Source: Candidatus Sysuiplasma superficiale
Lineage (GTDB): Archaea > Thermoplasmatota > Thermoplasmata > Sysuiplasmatales > Sysuiplasmataceae
DNA length: 64,000 nt
NCBI GenBank assembly: GCA_019720975.1
Contig: JAGVSJ010000002.1
Span: 62,001 to 126,000 of the forward strand
Direction: 5' to 3'
In this document: piece by piece, positions 578 through 44,139 of the stretch
Position numbering within the stretch: position 1 is the first letter of the stretch
Layout: every line of letters begins with the position of its first letter
Program-made: the position numbers and the translations under genes
Notes under the pieces: model-generated
Seen by the model: the letters and a program-made list of their open reading frames with translations, nothing else
Told to the model about the DNA's origin: nothing
Databases searched by the model: none

Positions 578-2086
578 ATGAATAAGACTTCAAAAACTGG
601 ATACGGAAGCCAGGACAGCGTGGGGGGTAATGGGACGGAGAGCCCCTTCGAACCTATGGACAGGACCGGCGTGAAGCGCTACCATCTGAAGACAATACTG
701 ATTGCCGGAATGGGGTTCTTTACGGATGCCTATGACCTCTTTGTCATAGGCGTGATCGCAGCGATGTTCAGCTTCTTCCTGCCCTTTCCTGTGCCGAACA
801 CCATCTTTACATTTCCGCTCGCCGGAAAGGTTGCAGCTGTCACAGGCATAGAACTGATAAGCTCGGCAGCAATATTCGGAGCCGCTATTGGACCTTTTAT
901 ATTCGGGCGTCTGGGTGACCTTCTCGGCAGGAAGACAGTATACGGGCTTGAAATGCTGATACTTGTCTTCGGTGCCATAGCGTCAAGCCTTTCCTGGAGC
1001 TTTGCTTCACTTGTCATATTCAGATTCATTCTTGGTCTCGGAATAGGTGGCGACTACCCGATGTCAGCCACGATAATGAGTGAATATTCCAATGTCAGGA
1101 GCAGGGGAAAACTCATCGGTACAGTGTTCGCGATGCAGGGGTTCGGTCTGATTGCCGGCATAATCCTTGGAATAGGACTGCTCGCAGCCATTCCTACATC
1201 CCTTAATCTTGTCTGGAGACTGCTTCTGCTTGCGGGTGCAATACCGGCTATCTCTGTCTACTATTTCAGGAGAAGGATGCCGGAAACACCAAGATTCACC
1301 TATCTGGTGAAAAGGGACAGCGAGGCAGCGTCGAAGGTTATATCCGAGCTCACGGGAAAGCAGCCTGCGCGCGAAACCACAGGAGTGAGTCAGGCGAAGG
1401 GAAAGGAGGGCTCCTACTTCACTCTGCTTTCAGCATATCTTCCGCTTGTATTCGGAACAGCGCTTAGCTGGTTCCTCTTCGACATATCATTCTACGGAAC
1501 ATCTATATACACACCAACGCTGCTGAATTCTCTAAGCCTGATTTATTCGCCCGGTCTCAGCCATGTCCAGCATCTTCTGGTTGCGGAGGAGTACACAGCC
1601 GTTGTGGATATACTCTTCACCATCCCCGGTTACTGGATAGCAGTCGCAACCATAGACCGTGTGGGCCGCAAGACGCTGCAGACTGTGGGTTTCTCCGTGA
1701 TGGCAGTAGCATTTGCAGTCCTGGGATTCTACCCTTCTCTGATAGCCCTCGGAATACCTTTTGTCGGCATATACGGTCTGACATTCCTCTTCGGCAATAT
1801 CGGTCCAAACACAACGACATTTGTCATACCGTCCGAATGCTTCCCGACAAGATTCAGGGGAACGGGTCACGGTATAGCTGCCGGCTCAGGCAAACTTGGT
1901 GCGGCACTCAGCACACTCACATTCGGTACGCTGATACTCGTACTGCATGACTCCGGTATGATGCTGCTGCTCTCGTTCATAGCATTCATCGGCGTTCTTG
2001 TAACGCTCTTCCTGATAAAGGAAACAAAACAGGTGACACTGGAGGAAGCATCCGAAGAGTGGTCTGCCCCGGCAGTGACGGAATGA
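578..2086 (+). CDS. MFS transporter, phosphate:H+ symporter (PHS) family
   Basis: A 502-residue integral membrane protein with about 12 helices. The first helix carries GMGFFTDAYDLF (about residues 46-57), the hallmark of the Pho84/Pht1 phosphate:proton symporters, followed by the loop GRLGDLLGRK and GIGGDYPMSATIMSE in helix 4. The central loop is long and the second half has GPNTTTFVIPSE. It is expected to import inorganic phosphate with protons across the cytoplasmic membrane, though some relatives move other anions or organic acids. It is closely related to the N-terminal 430 residues of the protein at 40312-42285 but lacks that protein's DUF47 tail. The start follows a GAGG-like stretch. 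An inverted repeat shared with the other copy lies upstream. Confidence 0.88.
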   Translation: MNKTSKTGYGSQDSVGGNGTESPFEPMDRTGVKRYHLKTILIAGMGFFTDAYDLFVIGVIAAMFSFFLPFPVPNTIFTFPLAGKVAAVTGIELISSAAIFGAAIGPFIFGRLGDLLGRKTVYGLEMLILVFGAIASSLSWSFASLVIFRFILGLGIGGDYPMSATIMSEYSNVRSRGKLIGTVFAMQGFGLIAGIILGIGLLAAIPTSLNLVWRLLLLAGAIPAISVYYFRRRMPETPRFTYLVKRDSEAASKVISELTGKQPARETTGVSQAKGKEGSYFTLLSAYLPLVFGTALSWFLFDISFYGTSIYTPTLLNSLSLIYSPGLSHVQHLLVAEEYTAVVDILFTIPGYWIAVATIDRVGRKTLQTVGFSVMAVAFAVLGFYPSLIALGIPFVGIYGLTFLFGNIGPNTTTFVIPSECFPTRFRGTGHGIAAGSGKLGAALSTLTFGTLILVLHDSGMMLLLSFIAFIGVLVTLFLIKETKQVTLEEASEEWSAPAVTE

Positions 2087-5392: not shown

Positions 5393-7504
5393 ATGGCAAA
5401 GGATCCGATCTGCGGAATGTACGTGGACGAGAGCACAGCAACGCTGAAGAGCGTTGTGGGAAACCGCTCCTATTACTTCTGCAGTTCCGATTGTAAGCAA
5501 CAGTTTGATCAGCCGATACTGAGCTGGAAGAGAAATAGATTTCTCACGCTGCTGAGCTGGGGTCTTGCAATTCCAGTCTTCTTTCTCACATACTTCATTC
5601 ATTTTTATGGTGTATTCATCATAGTCGCCATCTTTGCCTCCATAATACAGTTCGGACCTGGAATGCGTTTCTACAGAGGCCTGGCAGATGCTCTGAAAAG
5701 CAGATCATCGAATATGGATACCCTCATTGCAGTCGGTACGACAACAGCCTATGTTTACAGCCTGTTTCTTGTTCTGCGGGATCCATTTTCCACATCGCTG
5801 ACCGTCTATTTTGACACGTCTGCCCTGATAATCGCACTCATAAGGACAGGCAGCCTGATGGAGGAGCTGATGAAGGACAGGGCCTCCGAAGCCACAAGAA
5901 GGTTGATGGACCTGCAGCCGCGAACAGCAAGGGTAATCAGGGAAGGCGTTGAGAAAACTGTACCTGTGGAAGAGGTGGAGACAGGCGATACGGTCATAGT
6001 CAGGCCGGGAGAAATCATACCAGTAGATGGGATCATAACCGAAGGCTCAAGCGAGGTAGACCAGTCAATGGTCACAGGCGAGTCAATACCTGTGCCTGTC
6101 AGGGAAGGCTCGGAGGTCATTGGAGGAACAGTAAACACAGTTGGCTCCTTCCGTGAAAAGGCAACTTCCGTAGGTTCAGACAGCACCCTGTCCAGGATTG
6201 TCGAGCTTGTTTCTGAGGCAAAAGAGGGACGTGCTGCAATTCAGAGGCTTGCGGATGTCGTTTCCTCCTATTTCGTCCTCATAGTCTCAATTGCGGCGCT
6301 TGTCTCCTCGCTCTTCTGGTACTTTGTCGGCCATGCTGGTGTCACTGTCGCGGTACTTGCCTTTGTTTCAGTAATCATAGTTGCCTGCCCGTGTGCGCTG
6401 GGTATCGCCACACCAGCCGCCCTTATGGTAGGGGCAGGAAAGGGGGCAGAAAGCGGCATACTTTTCAAGGGAGGAGATTCGCTGGAAACCTCAAGAAAGG
6501 TGAGTATGGTTCTCCTTGACAAGACAGGCACAATCACTGAAGGAAAGCCTTCTGTTGCTCAGCTCATGGTTGCCGGGGGAAGCGGCATCACAGAGGAGCG
6601 TTTCATCTCCCTCTTTGCCCTCCTTGAAAAGTATTCCGAGCATCCTGTGGCAAAGGCAGCCACTGCGTTTGCCTCAGACAGAGGCATTCAGCCCTCCGAA
6701 TACACGGTTCAGCAGTTTGAGGCCATAGCCGGGTACGGTATACAGGGTATAATCGGCGGAAGAATTTACTGGGCCGGAAATCCCGAGCTTGCAGACAAGC
6801 ATTCAGCTACCCTTGATGACCGCATTGTATCGTTTCTGCATTCTCAGCAGCAGCTCGGAAGAACGGTTGTACTGTTCGGCTGTGAGAATACCATCCTCGG
6901 AGCGGTTTCTTTCGAGGACAGGATGAAGCCTGGAGCAGCGGAGACGGTAGGTATGCTGAAGGAAATGAAAATCGGTGTGGCCATGGTTACTGGCGATGAT
7001 ACTGCTGCCGCCGATCATGTCTCAAAGAGAGCAGGAATCGAACGGTATTTTGCGCGTGTCAAGCCCGATGGAAAGGAAAAGATTGTGAGAGAACTGCAGA
7101 AGGAGGGCTACACTGTGGCAATGGTAGGGGACGGAATAAACGATGCTCCATCCCTCGCAGCTGCGGATCTTGGCATTGCCATAGGAACAGGAACTGATGT
7201 CGCCAAGGCCGCGGGGGATGTGATCCTGATGAAAGGGGATCCGCGGGACATAGTGATTGCTCTGCGCCTTGGGAGGAAGACGTACGCAAAGATAAAGCAG
7301 AATCTGTTCTGGGCCTTTGCTTACAACACAGTACTCATCCCCATAGCAGGCGGTGCACTGGTTCCCTTCCTGGGCACTGGAATGTACAGCTACCTTCCCG
7401 TGGCTGCAGCGGTTGCAATGGCTTTCAGCAGTACAACCGTGGTCTCAAATTCGATTCTCCTGAGGCTGTACAATCCATCGATACCGGGAGTTGCATCAGC
7501 ATGA
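5393..7504 (+). CDS. copA: Cu(I)-exporting P1B-type ATPase with N-terminal YHS domain
   Basis: 703 residues. The N-terminus is a YHS/TRASH metal-binding unit (C7, C30, C34) rather than the usual HMA ferredoxin-like domain. The ATPase core is complete: TGES phosphatase loop, the transmembrane CPC motif in [12 protein letters not shown] (about residue 332), [10 protein letters not shown] with the phosphorylated Asp near 376, SEHPVAKA of the nucleotide domain, and [12 protein letters not shown] near 579. CPC with this core is typical of Cu(I)/Ag(I) exporters. It pumps copper out of the cytoplasm. It lies 28 bases after the small YHS gene and overlaps the next gene by four bases (ATGA), so all three are probably one operon controlled by the divergent TRASH regulator. 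Confidence 0.95.
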
Positions 7505-39132: not shown

Positions 39133-40131
39133 TCAGGGAAGCATGCAGTAGTTTATTGACACTTCACAGATATCAGTTGCATAGTAAGCCGTTCTCCTTA
39201 TCGATTCCTCTATCAGCGCCAGCATTATTGCTTCCTCCCCGCGTACCTTCTGTATCTCTCTTGAGAGATCGGGGAGCATTGTTTTGAGATAATCTCTCTG
39301 GTCTATCACCTGATTTGCCTCCTCCACGTTTTTCCTGAAATAAGCATTCATAGCGCCATCCAGCATCTTTATTGCAAAGGAATGAGCGACGGCAAACTTC
39401 TTTCGAAGGTCCGCTCCTGTCTCAAAACCTTTCAGCTCCGATACAGACCTGGCAATCTGGACCGCATGATCACCGATCCTTTCCAGATAACGGGCTACCT
39501 GGAAGTAGGAATTGCTCTCGTCTATGGTGATCTTTAGCCTTTCCGCAAGACCGATATTCTTCATCATCATATTGTGCTCCTTCATGATTATCCAGTAAAG
39601 CCTGTCAGCATCATAGTCTCTGTTTATGACATCAATCGCAAGCTGCACATCCGAGCCCAGCAAAGCGGAGATTGCATCTTCCTGCATCGAACGCACTATA
39701 AGGTGAAGGCGCCTCACACCCTTTTCCTGGGAGAGTTCCAGCGGATCGCTCAGGTCCTTTATGACTATGCTGTTGATGCTCTCTTCGACTATTTCAACCC
39801 CTGTTACCGACCTGGTAAAATGCCTTATTCTCTCCTTCATTGCGTTGTCTATCCTGTCCTTGGCTCTGACGGTTATTGAATCGAATCCCATCACATAGGC
39901 ACCTATTAGCATCCGTTCCAGATGTACTGGACTTTCCTTTTTAATTAAAAATTCCTTTGCCCTGGAGTTGCGTAATTCGGGTATGGATGCACTTATCGAC
40001 AGCATACCGTTTTCCGCAACTGTCAGCGCAAGTGAGTCGCCTGCGCGAATACCCATCTTCTTCACCCAGTCCTTAGGCAGAGAAACGGTATAAGTTGAAT
40101 TTCCAGTGAATTGCACTTTTCTTGTTTCCAT
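39133..40131 (-). CDS. phosphate regulator: SpoVT/AbrB domain plus PhoU repeats
   Basis: 332 residues. The first ~50 residues form an AbrB swapped-hairpin DNA-binding unit (KVQFTGNSTYTVSLPKDWVKKMGI). The remainder holds PhoU-like three-helix repeats: YFQVARYLERIGDHAVQIARSV contains the E-x-x-x-D metal-binding pattern, and a second repeat lies near the C-terminus. This architecture is common in archaea near phosphate transporters. It is divergent from the MFS-DUF47 transporter gene, with an inverted repeat between them, so autoregulation and control of phosphate uptake are likely. A TATA-like CATATATC (RC of about 40150-40158) lies about 24 bases before the ATG. Confidence 0.88.
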   Translation of the reverse strand: METRKVQFTGNSTYTVSLPKDWVKKMGIRAGDSLALTVAENGMLSISASIPELRNSRAKEFLIKKESPVHLERMLIGAYVMGFDSITVRAKDRIDNAMKERIRHFTRSVTGVEIVEESINSIVIKDLSDPLELSQEKGVRRLHLIVRSMQEDAISALLGSDVQLAIDVINRDYDADRLYWIIMKEHNMMMKNIGLAERLKITIDESNSYFQVARYLERIGDHAVQIARSVSELKGFETGADLRKKFAVAHSFAIKMLDGAMNAYFRKNVEEANQVIDQRDYLKTMLPDLSREIQKVRGEEAIMLALIEESIRRTAYYATDICEVSINYCMLP

Positions 40132-40173: not shown

Positions 40174-40195
40174 ATATAGTATATATAGACTATAT
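40174..40195. promoter_or_regulatory. perfect ATATAGT / ACTATAT inverted repeat, candidate phosphate box
   Basis: Arms at 40174-40180 and 40189-40195 are exact complements across 8 AT-only bases except one G. It lies between the AbrB-PhoU gene and the transporter it probably controls. The same arms occur at 497-511 before the other PHS-type transporter. Confidence 0.55.
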
Positions 40196-40311
40196 TCATA
40201 AAAGCATCAAATCTGTGTTGCTGACGTGACAATCCACCTACCAAAGAGAACACACTCCATGCCGATATTCTGCTGCAGAATGCCCGCTCCCGCACCGTCG
40301 GAGGGCTGCAG

Positions 40312-42285
40312 TTGAGCGGTGGCCAGAGCCCGTTCGCATCCCTAGATGAACAGGGAATCAGGAAATACCACATAAGGACACTTATCGTATCGGGAATGGG
40401 ATTCTTCACAGATGCCTATGATCTCTTCGTTATTGGCGCGATTCTTCCCATAATCGGCATTTACTTTGATATCTCCGACAAGTCACTTGCCTATGCACTT
40501 ATATCCAGCTCCGCTCTATTCGGAGCAATAATAGGTCCGCTGATATTCGGGCCTATAGCCGACAGATACGGCAGAAAGATAATCTACAGTTTCGACCTCC
40601 TCATACTGGTGGCTGCCGCAATCGGTTCGGCGACGGCTACAAGCGCATCTCAGCTCATTCTGTGGCGTTTTGTACTGGGGATAGGGATAGGTGCGGATTA
40701 TCCTGTAAGTGCCACAATAATGTCTGAATTCTCAAACAGGAAGGACAGAGGCAAGCTTGTAGCGTCCGTATTCGCTATGCAGGGATTCGGACAGCTGACA
40801 GGGGCCCTGGTAACCCTGCTTACACTGTTCCTGCATTTCCAGCTTTCACTTTCATGGCGCATACCGCTGGCAATGGGTGCAGTGCCAGCGCTTGCCGTTC
40901 TGTATATGAGGAACAGGATATCGGAAACGCCGCGATATGCGGCTTATTCCGGCATGAGCAACGGATCTCCTTCTTCCTCGCACAACATTCCAATGGATAG
41001 GGAGGAAGGAAGTCGTGGCTACGGAATAAGAATACCGAAGCGGGACATAATATCGATGTACATACCGCTGATACTCGGAACATCACTCTGCTGGTTTGCA
41101 TTGGACGTATCGTTTTACGGAACAGGCATATTTGCCAACACAATAATACACGACGTCGGCGCCATCTCCATAATTCATTCTACTGAGATAACAGCGGCAA
41201 TCTTTCTGTTTTCCGCCTTTCCAGGCTACTGGGCGGCTGTCTATCTAATCGACAATATAGGCAGGAAGAAACTGCAGCTGCTCGGTTTCATCTTCATGGC
41301 GGTGGCGTACTCCTCAATAGTGCTGATACCGTTCATCGTTTCCGACGTCACTGCACTCTTCGTGGTTTTCGGCTCAACGTTCTTTTTCATCAACATGGGG
41401 CCGAACACAACAACTTTCGTCATACCTGTCGAGGTATTTCCCACGCAGATCAGGACTACCGGGCATGGCATTGCTGCAGCCACTGGTAAGGCAGGAGCAG
41501 CCATGAGTGCTTTCCTGTTTCCATTCATGCTGAAATACATACATCTCAGCGGAATATTTTCATGGCTCGCAGTTGTCTCCATACTCGGACTGGCGCTGAC
41601 TGTGCTGTTCATACCCGAGGGGCAGGACAGAAGGCTTGAAGACATCAGCGGCGAAGAAAGACTTCTGAAAACATACTCTGAATTTTCCGATCTGATCTCA
41701 CAGCTCACCGAGAAGATCGTCCTCGCTTCCGAAGAGACCAACAGCTTCGTAAACGAATGGGGAAATACAGGAGAAATTGCCAGGAAAATCAAATCGATAG
41801 AGCATGACTGCGATGAAATAGTACACAGGATATTTGTCAGGCTGAACACGAAGTTTCTCGCTCCAATAAACAGGATGGAAATTGTTTCACTTGCACAGGC
41901 ACTGGATGACATAATGGATTATATCGAAGCTACGGTCGCCAGGTTTGAGATGTATAATATCAGTGCGTCTGATGAGTACATAAGGGAATTCATGAAAACG
42001 ATTCTTTCCTGCACAAAGGAGGTAGCGGTGGGCATCGCAAATATAAATGATATCTATTCCAAAAGGTTCGACAGAATAGAAAGGAGCTGCATAGAAATCA
42101 ACAAATACGAGAATGAATCCGATTCAACGCTTCGCAGGGCTCTTCAGACACTCTTCAGAGGAAGTGATGCCATCCATATAATAAAACTCAAGGAAATATA
42201 CGACAATCTCGAGACTGTTACTGACAAGTGCGAAGATGTGGCTGACATACTTCGCGATCTGATCGTCAAGTACAGGGGTCTGTGA
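40312..42285 (+). CDS. phosphate-type MFS symporter fused to a C-terminal DUF47/PhoU-like domain
   Basis: 657 residues. Residues 1 to about 435 form a 12-helix PHS-family transporter with GMGFFTDAYDLFVIG, GIGIGADYPVSATIMSE and GPNTTTFVIPVE. The last ~215 residues are a soluble helical DUF47 domain: KIKSIEHDCDEIVHRIF, LNTKFLAPINRMEIVSLAQALDDIMDYIEA and DNLETVTDKCEDVADILRD. DUF47 proteins normally exist as separate subunits beside Pit transporters and damp uptake. A single chain joining it to an MFS phosphate porter is unusual. The TTG start is supported by GGAGG 8 bases upstream, and no better start exists in frame. Confidence 0.88.
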   Translation: MSGGQSPFASLDEQGIRKYHIRTLIVSGMGFFTDAYDLFVIGAILPIIGIYFDISDKSLAYALISSSALFGAIIGPLIFGPIADRYGRKIIYSFDLLILVAAAIGSATATSASQLILWRFVLGIGIGADYPVSATIMSEFSNRKDRGKLVASVFAMQGFGQLTGALVTLLTLFLHFQLSLSWRIPLAMGAVPALAVLYMRNRISETPRYAAYSGMSNGSPSSSHNIPMDREEGSRGYGIRIPKRDIISMYIPLILGTSLCWFALDVSFYGTGIFANTIIHDVGAISIIHSTEITAAIFLFSAFPGYWAAVYLIDNIGRKKLQLLGFIFMAVAYSSIVLIPFIVSDVTALFVVFGSTFFFINMGPNTTTFVIPVEVFPTQIRTTGHGIAAATGKAGAAMSAFLFPFMLKYIHLSGIFSWLAVVSILGLALTVLFIPEGQDRRLEDISGEERLLKTYSEFSDLISQLTEKIVLASEETNSFVNEWGNTGEIARKIKSIEHDCDEIVHRIFVRLNTKFLAPINRMEIVSLAQALDDIMDYIEATVARFEMYNISASDEYIREFMKTILSCTKEVAVGIANINDIYSKRFDRIERSCIEINKYENESDSTLRRALQTLFRGSDAIHIIKLKEIYDNLETVTDKCEDVADILRDLIVKYRGL

Positions 42286-42438: not shown

Positions 42439-44139
42439 TCAGACAAAGGGTGTCAGCGGCGGAGCGTACTCATACACCGTTGCAAAGCCATTTGTATACA
42501 CTTCGACGAAATAATATGTTTTCAGCATGCTGAGCACTGAGGTTGGAATTGGAAGATCAGGCTGATTTGGATAGAAGTTTGCTGAATTGACCATCTCCCT
42601 GTCTACTATAATGTAGCCGATCCTCGCACTTCCTGCAGGTGTTTCCGAAAGGTTGAGATTGGCGAGGAGGTCATGAAGACCCGTCGAATGAAATATGGGG
42701 TAACCGCCAAACTCCCAGGTCGCCTCTCTTCCGCCGTAGCCGAAGACAATTGAACTGAGACGGTGATCGGAAGCAAACGTGGAATTCCTGGGCGTATTCC
42801 ACGCTATCCAGTTCGCAGCCTGGAGATCCTCGTACGGTGTTGCTCCGATCTTTGACGGCGAAGATATCGCTGCACTCTGAAAGGTAACAGCCATGGTGGA
42901 GAATATCAGGGCAAAGGCTACAATAACTGACACCCAGATTCTGGCTTCCGGTTTGAAATACAGTTCGAGTGTTCCAACAACTCCGAAGCCGACAAGAAAT
43001 GCAAGAAGCAAGTAGAGGTATTCAACGACTCTGAACGGAACAAGATAGGAAATGCCTGTAAAGAAACCGACTGCAATGATCGCAACAACAGAGAGAAGAA
43101 GAACTCCTACCAGAAAATTTTCATACCTGGCAGTGGAAAACTGGATGAAGAAAAGAACGCCGACAAGTGGAAGAATGAGAGAAGGGGCGAAGAATGCCGA
43201 AGCCGGATCCGGGTATATCGGAATTGAAGGGAAACCAAATGCTGAAACGTAAACGATGGCCGCGGCAGTTATGATGAAGATTGCAAAAATATAGCCACTG
43301 AGCAGCCTTCTACTGACACTGTAACTAAAAGAAGAACGGGAGATATGCAGATATCGGCCGGCGAAGTATATGAGCAGGATCGCAGCATAAGGCAGGAGGA
43401 GGGATAATGGTAGCGGTGCTATCTTCTGTATAAACAGTTTCATGAATTCGGGTGCTGCAAGAGACCAGTAAAAGATGGCGAGTGTTGTAACAGATACAAG
43501 AGAAATGACTGTCCGCGACAGACAAGCACTGTCCGCTCTTCTGAAAAATGAATAATAGACGAGGGAGATAAACATTGTGAGTATTACAAATACGGTTCCA
43601 AGATGGTATGTTGGTATCATCGACACTGCAAGAAGGGTGGAGAAAACAAAAGCTGTCCTGCTTCTACCTGAATCCAGGTAGAAATTAAGGAAGAATATCA
43701 GGACCATTTCCCCCAGTGTATCGGAGGCAATTATTGATGTGTGACCAACAGTGACAACTGAGGCTGAATAAAAGAGTGCCGTCAGGATGCCTCCTGCCTT
43801 TCTTCCTGAAAGTCTGCGCCCGATGGATGAAAACGGGAAAACTAGAAGAGATGAGATGAACGGCATACCCAGTTCTGTGACTGTTGCCGAAGAAATACCG
43901 CTGAAGGAAGAGAATACACCAAGCAGCTCATAGACAGCAGGAAATTCCGTATATGTGCTTCCAAAACCCAGATAAGGGGAAGGCATTCGGCCGAAAGATG
44001 AGAAATAATTCACAATATAGTAATTCTCACCTGTATCGGGTCCCCATACACTGTAAGAGAGAGGCATAATAAGGCGCAGCATCAGTGAAACAAAATAAAG
44101 TGAAATTACAGAGTAGAGATACCACCTGTCTTCTCTCAT
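42439..44139 (-). CDS. GT-C-type membrane glycosyltransferase-like protein
   Basis: 566 residues with roughly 11-13 membrane helices and a ~130-residue C-terminal outside domain. The first outside loop has an acidic pattern (SVWGPDTGENYYIVNYF) as in GT-C enzymes, where an Asp in this loop takes part in catalysis with a dolichyl-phosphate sugar. The C-terminal part has ANWIAWNTPRNSTFASDHR, which resembles archaeal dolichol-phosphate-mannosyltransferase-like proteins. A role in S-layer or lipid glycosylation is inferred. The sugar and acceptor are unknown. Confidence 0.68.
   Translation of the reverse strand: MREDRWYLYSVISLYFVSLMLRLIMPLSYSVWGPDTGENYYIVNYFSSFGRMPSPYLGFGSTYTEFPAVYELLGVFSSFSGISSATVTELGMPFISSLLVFPFSSIGRRLSGRKAGGILTALFYSASVVTVGHTSIIASDTLGEMVLIFFLNFYLDSGRSRTAFVFSTLLAVSMIPTYHLGTVFVILTMFISLVYYSFFRRADSACLSRTVISLVSVTTLAIFYWSLAAPEFMKLFIQKIAPLPLSLLLPYAAILLIYFAGRYLHISRSSFSYSVSRRLLSGYIFAIFIITAAAIVYVSAFGFPSIPIYPDPASAFFAPSLILPLVGVLFFIQFSTARYENFLVGVLLLSVVAIIAVGFFTGISYLVPFRVVEYLYLLLAFLVGFGVVGTLELYFKPEARIWVSVIVAFALIFSTMAVTFQSAAISSPSKIGATPYEDLQAANWIAWNTPRNSTFASDHRLSSIVFGYGGREATWEFGGYPIFHSTGLHDLLANLNLSETPAGSARIGYIIVDREMVNSANFYPNQPDLPIPTSVLSMLKTYYFVEVYTNGFATVYEYAPPLTPFV

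Follow-up and report, generated by a model that had tools for sequence, protein, structure and literature searches.

The gene that an earlier note had read as a Pht1/Pho84-like MFS phosphate transporter ending in a DUF47 domain lies in one uninterrupted frame of the window (the whole 64,000-nucleotide stretch of Candidatus Sysuiplasma superficiale DNA analysed here), next to a divergent gene for an AbrB-PhoU protein (Table 1). Pfam scanning bore out both parts of that reading. The encoded protein matched Sugar_tr (E 1.2e-50) and MFS_1 (E 1.9e-28) and, at residues 455–651, PhoU_div/DUF47 (PF01865; E 3e-21, 76.2 bits against a gathering cut-off of 24.4), and at such E-values chance is ruled out. 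The same scan found neither an SPX domain nor a Na_Pi_cotrans domain (PF02690) in the fusion protein. The junction between the MFS and DUF47 parts falls at about residues 448/449 (nucleotides 41655/41656), close to the site near 41640 that had been proposed, and the tail begins right behind the conserved MFS end motif with no long linker; the first long helix of the predicted model begins at residue 18. A second MFS copy at 578, announced as lacking the tail, indeed matched MFS only, and this paralogue is 45% identical to residues 2–448 of the fusion. Structure prediction, which the earlier note had proposed as a check, yielded both an MFS fold and a PhoU-family fold (AlphaFold2 models, Foldseek against the PDB).

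Table 1. Features of the fusion locus and of related loci (window coordinates unless a locus is named).
Feature	Position	Strand	Description and basis
Tail-less MFS paralogue	578-2086	+	502 aa; MFS only by Pfam, no DUF47 match
MazE/AbrB-type DNA-binding + PhoU domains	39133-40131	-	332 aa, candidate transcription regulator; PF04014 + PF01895, Pfam
Inverted repeat ATATAG-N10-CTATAT	40174-40195	.	Candidate operator in the 180-bp divergent promoter region
GGAGG	40300-40304	+	Likely ribosome-binding site, 7 nt 5′ of the TTG of the fusion; sequence reading
MFS-DUF47 fusion gene	40312-42285	+	Single ORF, 657 aa, TTG start, no internal stops
MFS phosphate:H+ symporter half	40312-41655	+	aa 1-448; Pfam, NCBIfam, PDB sequence matches, AF2 + Foldseek
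Codons of PiPT-aligned phosphate-site residues	40699-41490	+	Y130, Q157, W261, D265, Y269, N365, K393; PiPT alignment
DUF47 / PhoU_div / PitR-type six-helix domain	41656-42285	+	aa 449-657 and stop codon; PF01865, 3l39, AF2, Foldseek
Acidic E/DxxxD motifs, candidate metal sites	41800-42225	+	E497-D501, D532-D536, E600-D604, E634-D638; alignment
DUF47-ABC importer operons	L191 2317-8456; L186 1446-7366; L129 7213-12426

The carrier half has 12 predicted transmembrane helices, and its closest solved relatives in a PDB sequence search were rice OsPHT1;11 and fungal PiPT, in line with the transporter type that had been claimed. The same two proteins supplied all of the top 12 Foldseek PDB chains for the full-length AlphaFold2 model (built on a 45-row alignment; mean pLDDT 89.2), the best being PiPT 7sp5; the pTM of this model, 0.74, is too low to fix the docking of the tail on the carrier. 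TIGR00887 was the best NCBIfam match to the carrier, yet its 324.4 bits fell short of the curated cut-off of 610.3, as did the score of the 502-aa paralogue, and because of this shortfall we file the fusion carrier as a relative and not as a TIGR00887 equivalog. Alignment with PiPT, in which the chain numbering is offset by two from the variant names in the PDB titles, placed the PiPT variants Y150, D324, Y328 and K459 opposite Y130, D265, Y269 and K393 of the fusion, whose Q157, W261 and N365 we likewise take to be PiPT site residues. Each of the 31 aligned main-group fusions had all seven residues, together with D34 and D37, which were counted with the phosphate- and proton-site positions; the seven were also kept in 66 of 66 tail-less rows, one of which is the MFS half of L078, really a fusion split by an assembly gap. 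The group II fusions (L167–L173) carry W at the position of Q157 and R at that of K393 (7/7), and their substrate may be another phosphorus compound. Five carrier positions separating fused from tail-less proteins passed our filter; they formed no obvious docking patch and had no clear meaning. Judged by these alignments, the carrier is probably a PHS-type proton-coupled phosphate importer.

By sequence the tail matched 3l39 (E 3.9e-21), and a tail-only AlphaFold2 model (pLDDT 93.4, pTM 0.90) had PhoU or PhoU-like structures as all of its 16 best Foldseek PDB matches, led by 3l39 (TM 0.89) and including 2olt (about 0.80) and 1t8b and 1t72 (0.71–0.76). Its score against TIGR00153 was 55.0 bits, below the curated cut-off of 104.3. 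Six residues of the acidic motifs, E497, D501, D532, D536, E600 and D604, were found in 31 of 31 main-group fusions, in 7 of 7 group II fusions and in 17 of 17 separate DUF47 rows, one of these rows being the tail half of L078. Motifs of this acidic kind bind metals in PhoU proteins. The family defined by PF01865 has recently been named PitR and, in the portions of a bacterial survey used here (PMC13170248), is a single-domain protein normally encoded by a separate gene beside Pit, usually pitA; the domain of the fusion is instead joined to an MFS carrier. The tail is hence a PitR-type domain, and the whole fusion protein is not a PitR.

A search recovered full-length fusions in at least 45 of 300 genomes of the class, in seven families; a full-length match had to start at or before position 25 and end at or after position 678 of 681, so this lower bound leaves out a fusion truncated by a contig end (G007). 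Among the matches listed, 34 belonged to the main group (seven in f1, 24 in f9, and one each in f23, f28 and f17) and 11, weaker full-length matches, to group II (four in f26 and seven in f31). All seven group II genes fetched bear the tail, and Pfam agreed for both that were scanned. Among 60 related genomes, six of the same genus and family (G001–G006) contained a complete fusion at 67–83% identity and six f9 genomes one at 43–46%, while two public contigs labelled Thermoplasmata archaeon (L034 and L035) contained relatives at 74% and 68%. More fusions occur in public contigs, one labelled TACK and one Micrarchaeota, both metagenome-bin labels that are possibly wrong. The same read-through in the same genus and family, in f9 and in public contigs rules out a stop lost near 41640 between two genes, and the sequencing error that the earlier note had considered is thereby countered by unbroken fusions in independent genomes. 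One public copy, L078 (4990–7471), is broken into two frames by an NN assembly gap, and the published contig would show two genes. Upstream of the fusion, both L078 (3778–4989) and L045 (4257–5883) encode a pyridine-nucleotide/FAD oxidoreductase, matched in L045 to Pfam Pyr_redox_2.

In a tree of the MFS parts, in which 36 of the 66 tail-less rows were kept, the group II fusions of f26 and f31 formed a separate, more distant branch with a support of 100. An AU test on this tree rejected one common origin of the main-group fusions (p 0.001); the MFS half of L078 was counted there as a fusion, and the tested group was defined only after the tree had been inspected; without row L165 (G136), a single main-group clade was not rejected (p 0.239). 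In A1 and A2, row L042 began at 5935 and not at its first start codon, and in rows L008 and L009 the sequence began before the first ATG/GTG/TTG. The tail tree had long branches and left the order of events unsettled. Two or more gains of the tail, or an early gain with losses, would both fit these trees.

The divergent AbrB-PhoU gene recurs at a part of the fusion loci. Of the 28 fusion loci flanked by 2 kb or more on each side, 13 had a PhoU gene no more than 2 kb away, against 0 of 47 tail-less loci (seven of them from Thermoplasmata, with L078 left out); among the tail-less rows, PhoU genes within 2 kb accompanied L051, which is truly the G007 fusion at its contig end, and L121 (G058), which is genuinely tail-less. 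The other 15 well-flanked fusion loci, among them all well-flanked group II loci, had no PhoU gene within 2 kb by a profile based on 32 sequences related to the PhoU of the window, which distant bacterial PhoUs may escape. Where present, the PhoU gene is divergent from the fusion in f1 and in two f9 loci, L174 and L175; other f9 loci have it convergent, and in f7 AbrB-PhoU genes adjoin DUF47-Pit pairs (L142, L152 and L153). The inverted repeat between the two genes of the window, which is separated from the PhoU start codon by about 43 bp on its upstream side, occurs once in the window where 0.02 matches were expected and is partly kept in seven aligned family genomes; it could alternatively be just AT-rich promoter sequence. 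The ORF caller chose antisense frames in some G+C-rich loci, and the neighbour lists there are incomplete. On the other side of the fusion, the gene at 42439–44139 (minus strand) encodes a 566-aa protein that looks membrane-like by eye and has no Pfam match; a convergent gene of similar size lies next to the fusion, or one gene past it, in the f1 loci L114–L119.

The earlier note had stated that DUF47 is normally a separate subunit beside Pit-type transporters, which agrees with the portions of the bacterial survey used here (PMC13170248) and with our census. This census covered the own genome and its relatives and comprised 73 DUF47 hits. A Pit gene was no more than 1.5 kb away from 37 of them, on the same strand in 36 cases; the remainder consisted of 13 fusions, 15 hits with an ABC permease match at a distance of up to 6 kb, and eight with none of these. 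The seven separate DUF47s nearest to the tail were 31–41% identical to it, and six of them (G009, G022, G032, G037, G040 and G048) adjoin a Pit gene, which points to a Pit-type accessory regulator (PitR) joined to an unrelated carrier. As far as such sequence likeness can tell, the tail was most likely drawn from a Pit-DUF47 pair. The seventh (G047) comes from a genome with no Pit match and adjoins an ABC importer; two unlike DUF47 genes stand in tandem there beside the importer genes (L129, 7213–8503, minus strand). The same ABC type, with a double permease, two ATPases and DUF47, was found in L129, L186 and L191 (two middle genes of L186 lying outside the Pfam scan), making the ABC importer a further type of DUF47 partner. 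Phosphoglucomutase/phosphomannomutase comes next in the operons of L186 and L191, and a phosphoglucomutase gene also adjoins DUF47 in L189 and L190.

Some hosts of the fusion appear to lack the usual partner of its tail. Among the f9 genomes listed with a fusion, 18 of 24 had no PF01384 (Pit) match, and PF01865 exceeded its cut-off in 6 of 27 f9 genomes checked, only the fusion carriers. A Fisher test of fusion versus Pit in f9 gave p 0.0009, on which we do not rely, the count of five genomes with neither being a lower bound only. The f9 check also returned a sub-cut-off DUF47 match near the C-terminus of a 654-aa, non-transporter-like protein (L185, 6306–8270, minus strand; G184), whose gene adjoins one that is PEP synthase-like by eye. 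The own genome and family also retain a separate DUF47-Pit pair, so the fusion is no simple replacement there; PstC gave no match over the cut-off in the own genus.

Several known systems resemble the fusion in part. In the portions used here of the survey cited above (PMC13170248), a C-terminal PhoU domain was present on the NptA-type Na/Pi transporters of 258 of 306 NptA-bearing bacterial genomes, and our Pfam scan of E. coli YjbB likewise returned Na_Pi_cotrans and PhoU. The fusion shares with these proteins a PhoU-family domain at the C-terminal side of a phosphate transporter but differs in both components, since their carrier is PF02690 instead of MFS and their tail is PF01895 PhoU instead of PF01865; it would work in the manner of NptA without belonging to that group. 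With the PitA-PitR pair (PF01384 + PF01865) it has the regulator family in common, which in the fusion is placed covalently on an MFS protein instead, and with the Pht1/Pho84/PiPT symporters it shares the MFS fold and the PiPT-aligned site residues, whereas their PDB matches have no PhoU-like tail. Eukaryotic SPX-MFS vacuolar phosphate transporters carry their SPX domain at the N-terminus. Their layout, as far as the partial accounts drawn on here describe it, is analogous in combining an MFS phosphate transporter with a phosphate-sensing helical domain, there at the other end and from another domain family.

The claim of a new regulatory layout was thus overstated, as NptA (PMC13170248, in the portions used) and YjbB already carry a PhoU-family domain. 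As far as the literature could be searched, the novelty lies in DUF47/PitR on an MFS carrier. The thought that many proteins of this architecture might already be known held to the extent that such fusions are common among genomes of this class of archaea; no paper describing an MFS-DUF47 protein was found in the open-licence literature searched, such absence being weak evidence.

How the tail might work can be approached from its studied bacterial relatives. In S. aureus, PitR and the NptA PhoU domain are regulators of phosphate homeostasis, each with its own transporter, and loss of the PhoU domain from NptA altered phosphate signalling and perhaps import, on which the authors are cautious (PMC13170248, in the portions used). 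By analogy with these two regulators, the tail of the fusion should report on, and probably limit, its own carrier, and the brake suggested in the earlier note is on that ground a good hypothesis. The best explanation of the whole, to which we give about even chances, is an importer of the PiPT kind with a tethered PitR-type regulator that limits uptake and signals. The carrier would bring in phosphate with protons, which fits an acidophile lifestyle, and the C-terminal tail, judging from the 12 predicted helices, would lie on the cytoplasmic side. There it most likely monitors phosphate entry or internal phosphate on its own carrier, possibly via a bound metal. When phosphate is plentiful, the tail would limit net uptake through direct action on the carrier (the negative sign being taken from the analogy), and would also inform the neighbouring AbrB-PhoU regulator as the putative controller of the locus.

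Alternatively, the tail might leave the carrier ungated and only convert transport into a signal that informs the AbrB-PhoU regulator or a sensor kinase of phosphate status, a transceptor or relay that we regard as possible if rather doubtful. What has been demonstrated for PitR and the NptA PhoU domain, the nearest studied regulators, is mainly a part in two-component signalling, with PhoPR in S. aureus, in the portions of the bacterial work used here (PMC13170248). The AbrB-PhoU genes near 13 of the 28 fusions and near none of the 47 tail-less loci argue for such a relay, as do four HisKA matches in the own genome. The 15 fusions without a nearby PhoU gene argue against it, as does the fusion genome G026, which had no HisKA match in a search of that kinase family only.

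A purely passive tail that serves assembly or stability without sensing, for instance by dimerising the carrier at low pH, seems improbable to us. The coexistence of tail-less full-length paralogues with all site residues kept does imply that the tail is dispensable for the carrier as such. However, fused and separate DUF47s share without exception the acidic motif residues, which are not a matter of packing alone. The domain family is also a partner of phosphate transporters of a different fold and, in the portions of PMC13170248 used, is regulatory in bacteria as PitR. Very unlikely is a carrier of some other anion, such as arsenate or an organic phosphate, under regulation by the tail: the TIGR00887 score below its cut-off and the two altered site positions of group II might hint at it, but the PiPT-aligned site residues are intact in the window protein and in all main-group fusions, the neighbouring PhoU is phosphate-linked, and the tail is close to DUF47s that partner Pit. 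A merger of two genes through sequencing or assembly error can be dismissed with near certainty, given unbroken fusions in at least 45 of 300 genomes from several hosts and data sets and with nothing in its favour save the gap-split copy L078.

Since relatives share the joined protein, a single regulator module can apparently become part of transporters of unrelated kinds. In the portions of the bacterial survey used here, each regulator clade is stated to go with one transporter family (PMC13170248), and DUF47 on an MFS carrier conflicts with this picture, which was drawn for bacteria. We tentatively propose, with more reserve than for the working of the protein itself, that DUF47/PitR is portable, a phosphate regulator that docks on carriers; MFS phosphate symporters of acidophilic archaea would have captured it more than once and so become self-regulating transceptors, and in other lineages it would partner Pit or an ABC importer. 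If this were true, the rule of one clade for one family would be broken, and DUF47 would recognise something common to phosphate flux and not the surface of one carrier; the PitR family would then be shown not to be bound to Pit transporters. The survey, in the portions used, leaves open whether PhoU-type proteins sense phosphate via the carrier or via a signal in the cytoplasm (PMC13170248), and with carrier and regulator in a single polypeptide, where stoichiometry and partner are fixed, this question becomes directly addressable. The fusion also hints at how the entry of phosphate may be controlled in acidophilic archaea, some of which gave no Pit or Pst match.
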